Of a stretch of 64,000 nt of DNA, positions 35,013 to 40,591 are shown piece after piece. The stretch's first letter is position 1; every line of letters starts with the position of its first letter. A program made the position numbers and the translations under genes. The notes beneath the pieces were generated by a model. It ran no database searches. It had not been told where the DNA came from and saw nothing but the letters and a program-made list of their open reading frames with translations. The stretch spans positions 806,001 to 870,000 of the forward strand of contig NZ_CP061304.1 of assembly GCF_018687735.1 (NCBI RefSeq). Reading direction: 5' to 3'. The DNA comes from Polynucleobacter sp. MG-5-Ahmo-C2. GTDB lineage: Bacteria; Pseudomonadota; Gammaproteobacteria; Burkholderiales; Burkholderiaceae.

Positions 35013-37445
35013 ATGCCTGGCCACTTATTACTACCCTCTGAACCGATTCAGCTACCTTTGCTCCCATTGCGGGATGTTGTTGTCTTCCCTCATATGGTGA
35101 TCCCTTTATTTGTGGGTCGCCCTAAGTCGATTAAAGCTTTAGAAGCTGCCATGGAAACTGGCAAAAATGTTTTACTGGTTGCTCAAAAGACAGCGGCCAA
35201 GGATGAACCTGGTATTGAAGATCTGTATGAGGTTGGTTGCATTGCCAACATCTTGCAAATGCTGAAGCTTCCAGATGGTACCGTTAAGGTCCTGGTAGAA
35301 GGCGTGCAGCGTGCTGAAGTGAGTCAAATTGAAGACAGCATGGGTTACTTTAATTGTGAAGCTACTCCAACTGCTATTGACGCGATTGATGCGCATGAGA
35401 CTGAAGCTTTGCGCCGTGCCATCATGGCTCAGTTTGATCAGTACGTAAAACTTAATAAAAAAGTTCCACAAGAAATATTGTCTTCGCTTGGCGGCATTGA
35501 TGACCCAAGCCGCTTAGCCGATACCATTTGTGCGCATTTGCCAGTCAAACTAGAACAGAAGCAACGTTTGTTAGAAATGACTGATGTAGTGCAGCGTTTA
35601 GAAAGTCTTTTAGCCGATCTTGAAAGCGAGATTGATATCTTGCAAGTGGAGAAGCGCATTCGTGGACGTGTTAAACGTCAAATGGAAAAGAGTCAGCGCG
35701 AGTACTACCTTAACGAGCAAGTGAAAGCAATTCAAAAAGAATTAGGCGAGGGTGAAGAGGGCGCCGATCTCGAGGAACTTGAGAAACGTATTAAAGCTGC
35801 TCGGATGCCAAAAGAGGCTTTGAAAAAAGCTGAATCTGAGCTGAAGAAATTAAAGTTGATGTCACCGATGTCTGCTGAGGCTACAGTGATTCGAAACTTT
35901 ATCGATACTTTGGTGAATCTTCCATGGAAGAAAAAAACCAAGATTAATAATGACCTCACCAATGCGGAAAAAGTATTGGATGAAGATCACTATGGCTTAG
36001 ATAAGGTTAAAGAACGTATTTTGGAGTACCTCGCAGTTCAACAACGTGTTGATCGTGTGAAGGCGCCGATTCTTTGCTTGGTAGGGCCTCCTGGCGTCGG
36101 TAAGACTTCCTTGGGCCAGTCAATTGCCCGTGCGACCAATCGTAAGTTTGTGCGTATGGCATTGGGTGGTGTACGTGATGAGTCCGAGATTCGTGGACAT
36201 CGTCGTACTTATATCGGTTCGATGCCAGGTAAGATTTTGACAAGTCTTACCAAAGTGGGTGTCCGCAATCCATTATTCCTTTTGGATGAAGTGGATAAGA
36301 TGGGCATGGATTTCCGTGGTGATCCTGCGAGCGCCTTGTTGGAAGTTTTAGACCCTGAGCAAAATCACACCTTCCAAGATCACTATGTTGAAGTTGACTT
36401 TGATCTATCGGATGTGATGTTCGTTGCAACCTCTAACTCGCTTAATATTCCAGGCCCTTTATTGGATCGCTTGGAAATTATCCGTTTGGCTGGTTACACG
36501 GAAGACGAAAAAACTAGCATTGCTATCAATTACCTCATTCCCAAGCAAATTAAAAATAATGGCTTGAAAAAGGATGAGTTAAAGATTGAAGAGAGTGCAG
36601 TACGCAACATCATTCGTTACTACACCCGCGAAGCAGGTGTGCGCTCTCTAGAAAGAGAAATCAGCAAGATCTGCCGTAAGGTTGTCAAGCTTTTACTCCT
36701 GAAAAAAGAGGCCGCCCCAGTTGTAGTGAACGCTGATAACCTTGAGAAATTCTTATCCGTTCGTATGTATGACTTTGGTTTGGCAGGTAAAGAAAACCAA
36801 GTAGGCCAAGTAACGGGCTTAGCCTGGACTGAGGTGGGTGGAGATCTATTAACCATTGAGGCTGCAGTAATGCCAGGTAAAGGTGTCATTACACGTACAG
36901 GCTCCATCGGTGATGTCATGAAAGAGTCTGTCGAGGCTGCACGTACTGTTGTTCGCTCTAGATCAAAACGGCTTGGCATTACGGATGAGGCATTTGAGAA
37001 GAAAGATATTCACATTCACTTCCCAGATGGCGCAACCCCTAAAGATGGTCCCTCTGCTGGTATTGCGATTACCACCGCCTTAGTTTCTGTTTTCACGGGA
37101 ATTCCGATTCGCTCTGATGTTGCAATGACCGGTGAGATCACTTTGCGAGGTGAGGTTCTTCCGATTGGCGGCTTGAAAGAGAAGCTTTTGGCGGCGCACC
37201 GTGGCGGCATCAAATTAGCGTTGATACCAGAAGAGAATGTGAAGGATTTGATTGATATTCCGGATAACGTCAAGAACGCAATTGAAATTATTCCTGTGCG
37301 CTGGATTGATAAGGTTCTAGAGCTTGCGTTGGAACGTATGCCAGAAGCATTGCCAGAGCCAACACCCGAAGAGCTTGCTAAAAAGGCATCTGAAGTCAGT
37401 AAAGTGAGCGAGAAGATATCCTCAGGAGAAGTTCTCAAGCACTGA
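35013..37445 (+). CDS. lon: ATP-dependent protease Lon (class A)
   Basis: 810 residues, with GGAGG upstream of the ATG. The N-terminal substrate-binding LON domain starts LPLLPLRDVVVFPHMVIPLFVGR. The AAA+ module has Walker A GPPGVGKTSLGQS and LLDEVDKM. The protease domain has the catalytic serine in PKDGPSAGIA and the lysine partner downstream in GGLKEKLLAAHRGG. It degrades misfolded and regulatory proteins. A heat-shock promoter lies upstream and an inverted repeat (37456-37504) follows. Confidence 0.97.
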   Translation: MPGHLLLPSEPIQLPLLPLRDVVVFPHMVIPLFVGRPKSIKALEAAMETGKNVLLVAQKTAAKDEPGIEDLYEVGCIANILQMLKLPDGTVKVLVEGVQRAEVSQIEDSMGYFNCEATPTAIDAIDAHETEALRRAIMAQFDQYVKLNKKVPQEILSSLGGIDDPSRLADTICAHLPVKLEQKQRLLEMTDVVQRLESLLADLESEIDILQVEKRIRGRVKRQMEKSQREYYLNEQVKAIQKELGEGEEGADLEELEKRIKAARMPKEALKKAESELKKLKLMSPMSAEATVIRNFIDTLVNLPWKKKTKINNDLTNAEKVLDEDHYGLDKVKERILEYLAVQQRVDRVKAPILCLVGPPGVGKTSLGQSIARATNRKFVRMALGGVRDESEIRGHRRTYIGSMPGKILTSLTKVGVRNPLFLLDEVDKMGMDFRGDPASALLEVLDPEQNHTFQDHYVEVDFDLSDVMFVATSNSLNIPGPLLDRLEIIRLAGYTEDEKTSIAINYLIPKQIKNNGLKKDELKIEESAVRNIIRYYTREAGVRSLEREISKICRKVVKLLLLKKEAAPVVVNADNLEKFLSVRMYDFGLAGKENQVGQVTGLAWTEVGGDLLTIEAAVMPGKGVITRTGSIGDVMKESVEAARTVVRSRSKRLGITDEAFEKKDIHIHFPDGATPKDGPSAGIAITTALVSVFTGIPIRSDVAMTGEITLRGEVLPIGGLKEKLLAAHRGGIKLALIPEENVKDLIDIPDNVKNAIEIIPVRWIDKVLELALERMPEALPEPTPEELAKKASEVSKVSEKISSGEVLKH

Positions 37446-37551: not shown

Positions 37552-37627
37552 GGGCGCTTAGCTCAGTTGGTAGAGCGTCTGCCTTACACGCAGAATGTCG
37601 GGAGTTCGAGCCTCTCAGCGCCCACCA
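37552..37627 (+). tRNA. tRNA-Val (anticodon TAC)
   Basis: 76 nt with encoded CCA. Acceptor GGGCGCT pairs with AGCGCCC. The anticodon stem TCTGC/GCAGA encloses CTTACAC, giving TAC. The T stem GGGAG/CTCTC has one G-U pair. The position just after lon is conserved in betaproteobacteria. Confidence 0.97.
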
Positions 37628-37726: not shown

Positions 37727-39190
37727 ATGTTTGATACTGTCCGTAAACACCAAAAGCTTCTCCAGCTCGTGTTGATGCTATTCATCGTTCCATCATTTGC
37801 TATGTTCGGAATTTCTAGTTATTCCAGCTTCATGGATAAGGAAACAGACCTTGTGAAGATCAATGGCAAACCCATTACCGCCCAAGAGGTCGACAATGCA
37901 GCTAAGCGTCAAGCAGAGCGAGTTGGTGGCAATCTACAGATTGCACAAAGCCTGCAATTTAGACAGGCGATCCTAAATGAGTTACTGCAACAGCGCATTC
38001 TCGGCTTTGCAGTAAATGATTTGCGTCTTCAGGTTGGCAAAGATGCTTTAGTAAAGAGTTTGCAAAATATTCCGCAAATTCGAGCCCTTTACAAACCAGA
38101 TGGCACTTTTGACGACGTTCGTTTCAAGCAACTCTTAGCAAACAATGGCCTGAATGAAGAGCAGTTTTATGCCGGCCAGGCATTTGATCTCAAAATAAGT
38201 CAGTTGGTTAATTCGGTTGCTCGTACTGAAATTGGAAGCCCGAAGCTTTCTGAGATCATTTCCACTCTATATGAAACAGAGCGCCAAGTTCAGGCTTTGC
38301 CGTTCGAAGCTAAAAGCTTTTTAGCCAAGGTAAATCCAAGTCAAGAAGAGCTGCAGAATTTTTACAACGCCAACGCTAGTTTATTTGAGAGTCCTGAGTT
38401 TATTGATGTTGAGTATATTGTTCTCAAGGCTGACCCTAAGGAAGATGCTAAGGTCTTTAGTGAAAAGGCTGACCAATTCGCTAATATGACTTATGACCAG
38501 TCCGATAGTTTGAAGCCTGTGGCTGAAAAATTAAAGTTGAATATTCAGAGTCAAAAGGGCGTTACTCGCTCTGGCCTGGGCGGTGTATCCAGGGATCATC
38601 CATTAGCTAACCCTAAAGTCATCCAATCACTTTTTGGCGACGAGGCCCTAAAGAATAAGCGCAATATTGAGGCAGTTCAAACTGCACCTGGTGTTTTTGT
38701 ATCTGCGAGGGTAGTGATTTTCCATCCCGCTCAGACTTTGCCATTTAAAGACGTTGCTGGAGAAGTAAAGCGGCAAGTTAGCCAAAGGGCTGCAGAGAAA
38801 TTGGCTGTTGCTGCTGCTTCTGAGCGTTATGCAGAACTTCAAAAGGATCCAAAGAATGCTACTGGATTTGGCAGTGCTGTATGGGTATCTCGTAATAAGC
38901 CGGCAAACCTTGTTGGCAGCGCTTTAGATGATGTAATGTCCACCAATCCAGATAAATTACCCGCTTATATTTCGGTGAGCAATCCTGGGGTTGGCGCTAC
39001 TTTGTATCGAGTAGATCAAATTCGCCAGCCAACTGGTGTGGATGCAAAAGTTCATAAAGCACAGTCACAGCAAATTCAAGCGCTGGCTGCACAATCTGAG
39101 TTTGCGGGTTTTATGGCTTATTGGCGCGACACTGCAAAGGTGAAAACTATCAATCCATTGAAGCCCCCATCTACAGGTGCAGGCAGTTAA
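37727..39190 (+). CDS. ppiD: PpiD/SurA_N-type periplasmic chaperone lacking the parvulin domain
   Basis: 487 residues. An N-terminal cytoplasmic stub and one membrane helix (about residues 12-30) are followed by a SurA_N-like chaperone domain (DLVKINGKPITAQEVDNAAKRQ). In PpiD of relatives (about 620-640 residues) a parvulin PPIase domain lies in the middle. Here the text passes directly from PEFIDVEYIVLKADPKED (to about residue 240) to AKVFSEKADQFANMTYDQSDSL, the segment normally found after the parvulin domain. No parvulin motif (HILI, GGDLGFF) is present. The roughly 150 residues missing equal the size of that domain, and the frame is intact, so this looks like a clean domain loss. It follows lon and tRNA-Val, the usual ppiD site. 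A chaperone role without isomerase activity is inferred. Confidence 0.88.
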   Translation: MFDTVRKHQKLLQLVLMLFIVPSFAMFGISSYSSFMDKETDLVKINGKPITAQEVDNAAKRQAERVGGNLQIAQSLQFRQAILNELLQQRILGFAVNDLRLQVGKDALVKSLQNIPQIRALYKPDGTFDDVRFKQLLANNGLNEEQFYAGQAFDLKISQLVNSVARTEIGSPKLSEIISTLYETERQVQALPFEAKSFLAKVNPSQEELQNFYNANASLFESPEFIDVEYIVLKADPKEDAKVFSEKADQFANMTYDQSDSLKPVAEKLKLNIQSQKGVTRSGLGGVSRDHPLANPKVIQSLFGDEALKNKRNIEAVQTAPGVFVSARVVIFHPAQTLPFKDVAGEVKRQVSQRAAEKLAVAAASERYAELQKDPKNATGFGSAVWVSRNKPANLVGSALDDVMSTNPDKLPAYISVSNPGVGATLYRVDQIRQPTGVDAKVHKAQSQQIQALAAQSEFAGFMAYWRDTAKVKTINPLKPPSTGAGS

Positions 39191-39209: not shown

Positions 39210-39866
39210 CTACTTGCTGAGAAGTGATTGATATGGGGCCATAGCGCCCCATACGTTTTTATACAAAATCATCTGTGCTTTTTCATTGGGATGAATGTTG
39301 TCCTGCTGAAATAGTGCAGCGTTACTCGCAACACCTTCTAAGAAAAACGGTAGTAGTTCGACGCTCTCTTGGGCGGCGAGTTTTGGATAGAGCTCTTTAA
39401 ATTTCTTTGTATAGGCATGGCCATAATTTGGCGGAATTTGCATACCAAGTAACAAAACCTTAGCACCGGTTTTTTTGCTCAGCACGATCATCCTGCGTAA
39501 GTTCTTTTCGGTCTCAGTAATAGATAGGCCTCGCAAAGCATCATTCGCACCGAGCTCAAGAAATACAATGGCAGGCTTTTTCTGCTCTAGTAGCTTGGGT
39601 AGGCGGGCAAGACCACCAGAAGTCGTTTCTCCGCTGATGCTGGCATTAAATACAGTCCACTGACTTCCTTGTTTTTGAAGTTGACCCTCAAGAAGTTTTA
39701 CCCAACCCGAACCCCTGACGAGGCCATATTCAGCTGAAAGACTATCGCCCATTAGCAAAATGACAGGATTAGGGCTCGCAGATGTGACAAAGGAAATTAA
39801 CAGGCAAAATAAGCCTATTGCAATAGCTTTTTTTGATATGAAAGTCGACGGAATATTTTGATTCAT
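39210..39866 (-). CDS. tesA: TesA-type GDSL esterase/lysophospholipase
   Basis: 218 residues with a signal peptide (about residues 1-30) and the SGNH hydrolase blocks: GDSLSAEYGL (nucleophile Ser), GETTSGG, GANDALRG and DNIHPNEKAQ (Asp/His). It is like TesA of E. coli, a periplasmic thioesterase I/arylesterase/lysophospholipase L1. It is divergent from a YbbA-type ATPase, the conserved tesA-ybbA arrangement. The next gene upstream, ppiD, is convergent with it. Confidence 0.92.
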   Translation of the reverse strand: MNQNIPSTFISKKAIAIGLFCLLISFVTSASPNPVILLMGDSLSAEYGLVRGSGWVKLLEGQLQKQGSQWTVFNASISGETTSGGLARLPKLLEQKKPAIVFLELGANDALRGLSITETEKNLRRMIVLSKKTGAKVLLLGMQIPPNYGHAYTKKFKELYPKLAAQESVELLPFFLEGVASNAALFQQDNIHPNEKAQMILYKNVWGAMAPYQSLLSK

Positions 39867-39916: not shown

Positions 39917-40591
39917 ATGAGCGCCTTCGAAAAAGTTCTTAGCGCTGTTCACTTGGGTAAGTCCGTTCGCTCCAGCGATGGCATCCTTAGCATTTTGCAC
40001 GACATTTGCTTTGAGCTCAGTCAAGGTGAAAGTGTAGCTATCACTGGCAGCTCTGGTTCCGGTAAAAGTACTTTACTCGGCCTTTTGGCCGGCTTAGATC
40101 TTCCGAGTGAGGGTAATGTCACCTTGATGGGGCAGAATCTCAATACACTCGATGAAGACGGCCGTGCCAAACTGAGGGGTTTGCAGGTTGGCTTTGTTTT
40201 TCAGTCATTTCAACTGTTACCGCACCTAACGGCGCTTGAAAATGTGATGCTCCCGGCAGAGCTGTCGAGAATGGAAAACCCCAAGGCAAATGCTAAAACA
40301 TGGCTCGAGCGCGTGGATTTAGGTGAGCGATTTGACCATTTCCCCAAAACCCTTTCTGGAGGGGAGCAACAACGGGTGGCCTTGGCAAGAGCCTTCATTA
40401 CTAAGCCTGCCATTCTGTTTGCTGATGAACCTACCGGAAGCTTAGATGAAGCTAGCGGAAATCGGGTCATTGAGCTCCTTTTTGATCTCAATCAAGCCAA
40501 TCAATCTACCCTTGTTCTGGTTACCCATGATCCAGCCTTGGCTAGTAGGTGCCAGCGCCAATTACACCTTCAGGGCGGGCGCTTGTTGTAG
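39917..40591 (+). CDS. ybbA: YbbA-type ABC transporter ATP-binding protein, without its permease
   Basis: 224 residues of the LolD/MacB group of ABC ATPases. Walker A is GSSGSGKSTLL, the signature LSGGEQQRVALARA and Walker B ILFADEPTGSLD. It is divergent from tesA as in E. coli. In E. coli the large permease ybbP follows ybbA; here purL follows after only 21 bp, so no permease is encoded next to it. The partner must be elsewhere or absent. Confidence 0.9.
   Translation: MSAFEKVLSAVHLGKSVRSSDGILSILHDICFELSQGESVAITGSSGSGKSTLLGLLAGLDLPSEGNVTLMGQNLNTLDEDGRAKLRGLQVGFVFQSFQLLPHLTALENVMLPAELSRMENPKANAKTWLERVDLGERFDHFPKTLSGGEQQRVALARAFITKPAILFADEPTGSLDEASGNRVIELLFDLNQANQSTLVLVTHDPALASRCQRQLHLQGGRLL

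Follow-up and report, generated by a model that had tools for sequence, protein, structure and literature searches.

Loss of the inner parvulin domain from Polynucleobacter PpiD and its recurrence in other lineages

In annotations, PpiD goes by the name of peptidyl-prolyl isomerase. The reason many species keep its parvulin domain is puzzling, the domain of Escherichia coli PpiD being reported as dispensable (PMC2956729) and devoid of activity (PMC2956729, PMC9797188). E. coli PpiD (623 amino acids (aa); structure 8zht with YfgM) acts with YfgM at SecYEG, and its contacts are at residue 122 for SecG and at residues 599/600 for YfgM (PMC9643414). In this study, we analysed a window, by which we mean the whole stretch of 64,000 nucleotides at C1:806001-870000 of the freshwater bacterium Polynucleobacter sp. 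MG-5-Ahmo-C2, whose genome is one contig of 1.82 Mb. The window contains a ppiD gene (37727..39190, + strand) encoding a PpiD of 487 aa without the inner parvulin domain. It shares with E. coli PpiD the membrane anchor, the NC domain, the nested second and third domains, the lon neighbourhood and the presence of a YfgM gene. The E. coli protein keeps the inner parvulin domain, whereas in the window protein this domain and its stalk are gone.

A comparable protein has been made in the laboratory. The engineered E. coli PpiD-delta-Parv, which like the window form has no parvulin domain, is chaperone-active and complements chaperone mutants (PMC2956729). It restored the growth of an fkpA ppiD surA mutant, rescued surA skp cells slightly less well than intact PpiD and protected citrate synthase about twice as well, but its level in the cell was lower (PMC2956729). 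In contrast to this laboratory product, the natural form is also without the stalk helices and is found throughout a genus. SurA and SurA N-Ct likewise have a chaperone core that is independent of the isomerase domains (PMC2956729), although SurA is a separate soluble protein. In a modelling paper, the parvulin 'hand' of PpiD was proposed to grip DsbA (PMC9797188). No report of a natural loss of the PpiD parvulin domain was found in the titles and abstract openings of the searched literature, most subscription journals lying outside its scope. Nature seems to have made repeatedly the truncated PpiD that was once built in E. coli.

Architecture of the window PpiD and the missing domain

An earlier note, made from this DNA alone, claimed that the gene is a ppiD orthologue that has lost its parvulin domain. 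Our results agree with this. The gene is an open reading frame (ORF) with an ATG start, and its product matched SurA_N_3 (PF13624) at residues 1-160 with 103 bits. Neither PF00639 nor PF13616 matched the window PpiD in the Pfam scan. Four full-length relatives from the order (639-650 aa) were also scanned and gave PF00639 at 99-106 bits. In the alignment to L043, a full-length PpiD of the same family, window residues 237 and 238 correspond to L043 residues 243 and 395. The window protein thus lacks 151 residues at the junction (38437..38438, +), whose position is uncertain by a few residues on either side. The gap takes the whole PF00639 parvulin domain together with the helical stalk. L043 and L049, from the same family, are orthologues with 38% and 37% identity to the window PpiD; they and the full-length PpiDs of the order differ from it in having an inner parvulin domain with catalytic residues.

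Apart from the parvulin domain, the window protein has the fold seen for PpiD in the structure with YfgM. The N-terminal membrane anchor (residues ~9-31; 37751..37819, +) was placed by a model helix at 9-31 with a low predicted local distance difference test score (pLDDT), a hydrophobic run and analogy to E. coli PpiD. The N-terminal lobe of the SurA-like NC domain (residues 38-181; 37838..38269, +) follows from the PF13624 match and from mapping of the E. coli NC domain, 38-186 (PMC9643414). The second domain lies in two parts, residues 182-218 (38270..38380, +) and 338-435 (38738..39031, +), both mapped from the E. coli domain limits. Residues 222-336 (38390..38734, +) are the retained third domain, a degenerate parvulin-like fold, and the NC domain is completed by its C-terminal helix (residues 436-480; 39032..39166, +), placed by a model helix at 440-469 and by mapping from E. 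coli. A comparison of the window PpiD with PDB sequences gave no useful match. The proposal of the earlier note that the chaperone parts are retained, with chaperone work as the likely function, is supported.

The same note had the parvulin gone from the middle of the protein and regarded a parvulin fold at residues 195-290 as evidence to the contrary. In the predicted model, a parvulin-like fold is present at 222-336, which rules out the absence of any such fold from the window PpiD. However, this is the outer parvulin-like domain, which full-length PpiDs also have alongside the inner one. The claim is thus right for the inner PF00639 domain and needs correction for the outer, degenerate one, which is kept. 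The retained domain has the beta-alpha-alpha-beta-alpha-beta-beta fold and reaches the gathering score of PF13145 (Rotamase_2), with 29.6 bits at residues 204-343 against a cut-off of 27. In HHalign, the first His of the lost domain pairs with a Tyr of the retained domain, and neither the third nor the inner domain showed sequence likeness to the second domain. These results indicate that the third domain is a degenerate homologue of the lost parvulin domain and that PpiD is a nested protein whose innermost domain is gone.

The earlier note also argued from the inactivity of the E. coli domain, an argument that does not transfer directly. The active-site His/Asp/His is kept in 22 of 22 full-length rows (14 loci from order genomes and 8 database proteins), whereas both active-site His are gone from the inner domain of E. 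coli PpiD. Sequence alone is no proof of activity. From these residues, the lost domain was probably not dead before its removal, and the loss of an already dead domain would not be the best account here.

The open frame is under selection, as had been claimed. In 10 pairs with genus relatives, the nonsynonymous divergence (dN) of the whole gene was 0.055-0.103. The synonymous divergence (dS) was saturated; it was finite in four pairs, with dN/dS of 0.030-0.042. In nine pairs the third domain had a lower dN than the gene as a whole; the exception among the 10 was the L064 pair, with 0.058 for the domain vs 0.055 for the gene. These results demonstrate that the ppiD frame is under purifying selection, and the open frame and low dN rule out a pseudogene or decay.

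Spread in the genus, partners and predicted function

The earlier note proposed a survey of Polynucleobacter genomes to date the loss. PpiD was matched in 177 of the 186 genomes of the genus (the window's own included) and in all 144 of good quality; the nine without a match are 56-87% complete. Read by eye in the row tables, every match spans the junction without an insert, except that in G551, which ends at residue 215. All 120 relatives among the matches listed are 486-492 aa long, and the close ones with an organism name are Polynucleobacter, at 82-84% identity. The wider surveys covered genomes of an order and a class that we take, from Polynucleobacter and Neisseria, to be Burkholderiales and Gammaproteobacteria. 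In the order survey, 386 of 399 genomes matched. Most of these lay beyond the rows listed and were judged only by having two matches, and eight genomes with one match each, of weak E-value, were left unclassified (G079, G236, G265, G292, G351, G397, G408 and G416), of which G079 was later found to be short. Six genomes of five sister genera in the same family gave two matches each, in frames of 649-660 aa, and in G192, G347 and G318, for which both rows are listed, 143-156 residues lie between the two. Since the genus lacks the insert and its sister genera carry it, the loss is placed on the branch leading to Polynucleobacter. A sequencing or assembly collapse, which the earlier note named as a possible refutation, is practically inconceivable and was rejected, because the window's genome is one contig and the form is shared by 176 further Polynucleobacter genomes (G551 being uninformative) and by all 120 of the relatives above.

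The YfgM partner is retained. The window genome encodes a YfgM-like protein (TPR_21, 154 bits), the gene of which adjoins what we take, by our own reading, to be hisS-like and bamB-like genes. TPR_21 was above the cut-off in 34 of 34 genomes tested, 30 of them with a short PpiD. None of the E. coli contact residues is in the lost part; their counterparts in the window protein are residues 113 (SecG) and 457/458 (YfgM). In the 1.0-Mb genome G745, which has a short PpiD, the YfgM-like match (G745:C1:393035-393607) has one internal TGA stop.

A check for surA or another parvulin, also proposed in the earlier note, found three proteins. SurA of the window genome has 482 aa and two PF00639 matches, and its gene adjoins a presumably pdxA-like gene (named by our own reading). 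A 266-aa protein at C1 ~878601-879401 (L002:1078-1878), about 9 kb past the window, has by our reading an apparent signal peptide and HIL and GYHII motifs; next to SurA, it is a candidate for the isomerase work still to be done in the periplasm. A 280-aa protein at C1 ~372325-373167 (L003:1024-1866) matched PF00639 with 56 bits and is without the His motifs; it is perhaps an inactive parvulin chaperone.

We hold with good confidence that the Polynucleobacter protein is a PpiD orthologue after removal of the innermost domain from a nested protein, still a chaperone with YfgM and with no isomerase activity predicted. PpiD is nested as NC (SurA-like) domain, second domain, third domain and parvulin domain, each inserted in the preceding one. 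In the lineage leading to Polynucleobacter, the parvulin domain and its stalk would have been deleted in frame, and the third domain, itself degenerate and parvulin-like, could then close up. By analogy with the engineered PpiD-delta-Parv, the window PpiD is most likely a chaperone with YfgM at the Sec translocon, where it would be membrane-anchored and bind emerging chains without prolyl isomerase activity. A chaperone-only PpiD, with the isomerase work done elsewhere, is likely because of the delta-Parv data and because YfgM and other parvulins are retained; that work would fall to SurA and a second parvulin of the periplasm.

Absence of the domain in other lineages

The loss is not one isolated event. 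Family f18 of the order gave PpiD matches in 25 of its 26 genomes, all of them without an insert (loci L038-L041, L044, L045, L050, L052, L059 and L070-L089; genomes of 1.1-2.3 Mb). In the class survey, 359 of 370 genomes matched, and among the matches listed 13 genomes besides the window's have a contiguous short PpiD: G911 and G837 (f205), G688 (f148), G687 (f147), G912 (f76), G680 (f140), G866 (f133), G595 (f55), G913, G747, G839 and G619 (f79) and G613 (f73). Re-examination of 66 further genomes gave six more, of 523-537 aa (G745, G616, G079, G654, G725 and G943). The 66 were hand-picked, 47 of <=1.9 Mb and 19 of >=3.6 Mb, with at least one small genome (G813) left out, and low-scoring genomes of the class survey were classified only where they were among them. 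PF00639 was absent from the 13 of the 19 short proteins that were scanned (eight, then five), from f205, f148, f147, f76, f140, f133, f55, f79, f114 and f44; the shortness in f73 and f185 is based on frame length and match alone. For comparison, five longer PpiDs all had PF00639 above the cut-off, one of them weakly (31 bits). These results indicate that the same domain is missing in f18, in the Neisseria group and in nine more Pfam-checked families of the class, with differing cut points. A loss private to the species or genus is thereby excluded.

Both forms were found within f140, f133 and f147. What remains between the flanking strands varies: at one extreme the join is clean, and at the other a stretch of stalk or low-complexity linker, some tens of residues long, is left. 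In L187 and L191 (f205), an Ala/Ser/Gly-rich low-complexity linker of some tens of residues (residues ~235-275) stands in place of the lost domain. At G934:C121:2368-3889, a PpiD-like match runs over two frames with no space for a parvulin domain and is possibly a frameshifted short form. Another, at G659:C54:8049-9548, has the insert; the open frame around it was counted as 3210 aa, far beyond gene length.

The short PpiD of G079 belongs to the Neisseria group, where listed relatives include N. meningitidis (a partial record of 342 aa) and N. iguanae (509 aa). Full-length relatives of 605-614 aa are listed from N. perflava, N. animalis, N. elongata, N. musculi and others. Like the window form, the short PpiDs of Neisseria (507-512 aa) and the other lineages have no PF00639, and their outer Rotamase_2 is over or near the cut-off. 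Their cut points differ from that of the window form, and Neisseria and several of the others keep the stalk helices; in the Neisseria-group short forms, 98 columns, the domain core, are missing.

The loss is real. As the deletion of a domain from a known chaperone it is of an ordinary kind, but it is wider than the earlier note supposed. What makes it interesting is that it recurs and that a nested architecture permits it. The short forms suggest that their isomerase annotation is wrong. The DsbA-holding model (PMC9797188) cannot apply in lineages without the parvulin 'hand', and it would not be general if these lineages live without that domain. We put forward, tentatively and at somewhat less than even chances, that the presence of the inner domain is a mark of lineages with a second task to be done at the translocon, such as DsbA docking in the published model, and not of a need for prolyl isomerisation. 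If so, close species with and without it would provide a natural experiment on the role of the domain. Lineages that lack it beside relatives with a catalytic-looking copy offer a direct comparative test.

Alternative explanations and the locus

Several observations weigh against parts of this reading. The NCBIfam equivalog NF008054 was not reached by the window PpiD (99.4 bits vs a cut-off of 493), and because of this we name the protein a parvulin-less variant and not a canonical PpiD. In HHalign, the leader segment accounts for much of the likeness between the retained and the lost domain, and the alignment stops before the last strands. Some full-length PpiDs outside the 22 rows have a degenerate inner domain: that of L249 (328-2217; G781, f133), a protein of 630 aa, gives no more than 31 bits on PF00639, and P0256 and P0260 have by our own reading Tyr for the second His. 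Two points of the same kind come from trees. The core tree of PpiD (57 rows) joined Polynucleobacter and f18 at 87/91, as expected if both short forms came from a single loss spread by descent or gene transfer. We consider that origin improbable and take the two as separate losses, for the Lon+PurL tree of 30 genomes grouped Polynucleobacter with the other members of its family (90/99, not starred) and rejected a clade with f18 (p-AU 0.0027, approximately unbiased test; log-likelihood 102 lower). In the PpiD tree, Polynucleobacter with its own family was not rejected (p-AU 0.319), and both groups stand on long branches (0.40 and 0.74), one of which carries 16 f18 rows. The lon-ppiD order is preserved in both, and among the 120 matches listed f18 PpiD found its own short relatives and then full-length PpiDs, not Polynucleobacter. 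The other point concerns the patchwork of the Neisseria group, analysed in 33 of 120 listed proteins, hand-picked (12 short, 21 full). Many forks of that tree are open, and its starred branches force only two of the six changes that it requires (bootstrap range 5-6). Neisseria is naturally competent, and recombination moving one deletion allele could explain part of the pattern. As an account in place of repeated deletion, it is rather unlikely, since the short rows as one clade were rejected (p-AU 0.0021) and the remnants at the cut are unlike among P0243, P0275 and P0311.

Drift in small genomes after the domain had become useless, with no gain of function and with the recurrence due to a general deletion bias, is a serious contender that falls a little short of an even chance. 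Outside the genus, the short forms of the class survey occur in genomes of 1.0-2.8 Mb, and a short frame was found in 6 of the 47 genomes of <=1.9 Mb (three of them unclassifiable) vs 0 of the 19 of >=3.6 Mb, counts that carry no tree correction. In contrast, 38 of the 47 small genomes have a long frame (608-695 aa, one of 3210), a count that also belongs with the contrary observations above. The short form occurs in genus genomes of up to 3.2 Mb (G464), the remainder of PpiD is strongly conserved and the junction is clean, all of which counts against drift. As for L249, its inner domain is perhaps halfway from working to lost; G866, also of f133, has lost the domain.

The neighbourhood of the gene is partly conserved. 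The window ppiD sits downstream of lon (35013..37445, +, from the ORF list), a conserved upstream neighbour, with tRNA-Val (tac; 37552..37627, +; ARAGORN) between them. In relatives, the adjacency varies: lon and ppiD are adjacent in G192, a genome of the same family with lon directly upstream, and in G288 and G318, and they are apart in G347 (~18 kb), G153 and G228. In f18, lon is just upstream of ppiD in four of five placed genomes, and in the fifth the two are on separate contigs. In E. coli, hupB lies between lon and ppiD. Downstream of the window ppiD is a divergent pair, 39210-39866 (-) and 39917-40591 (+), whose products we take to be GDSL-type esterase-like and ABC-transporter ATPase-like, respectively.
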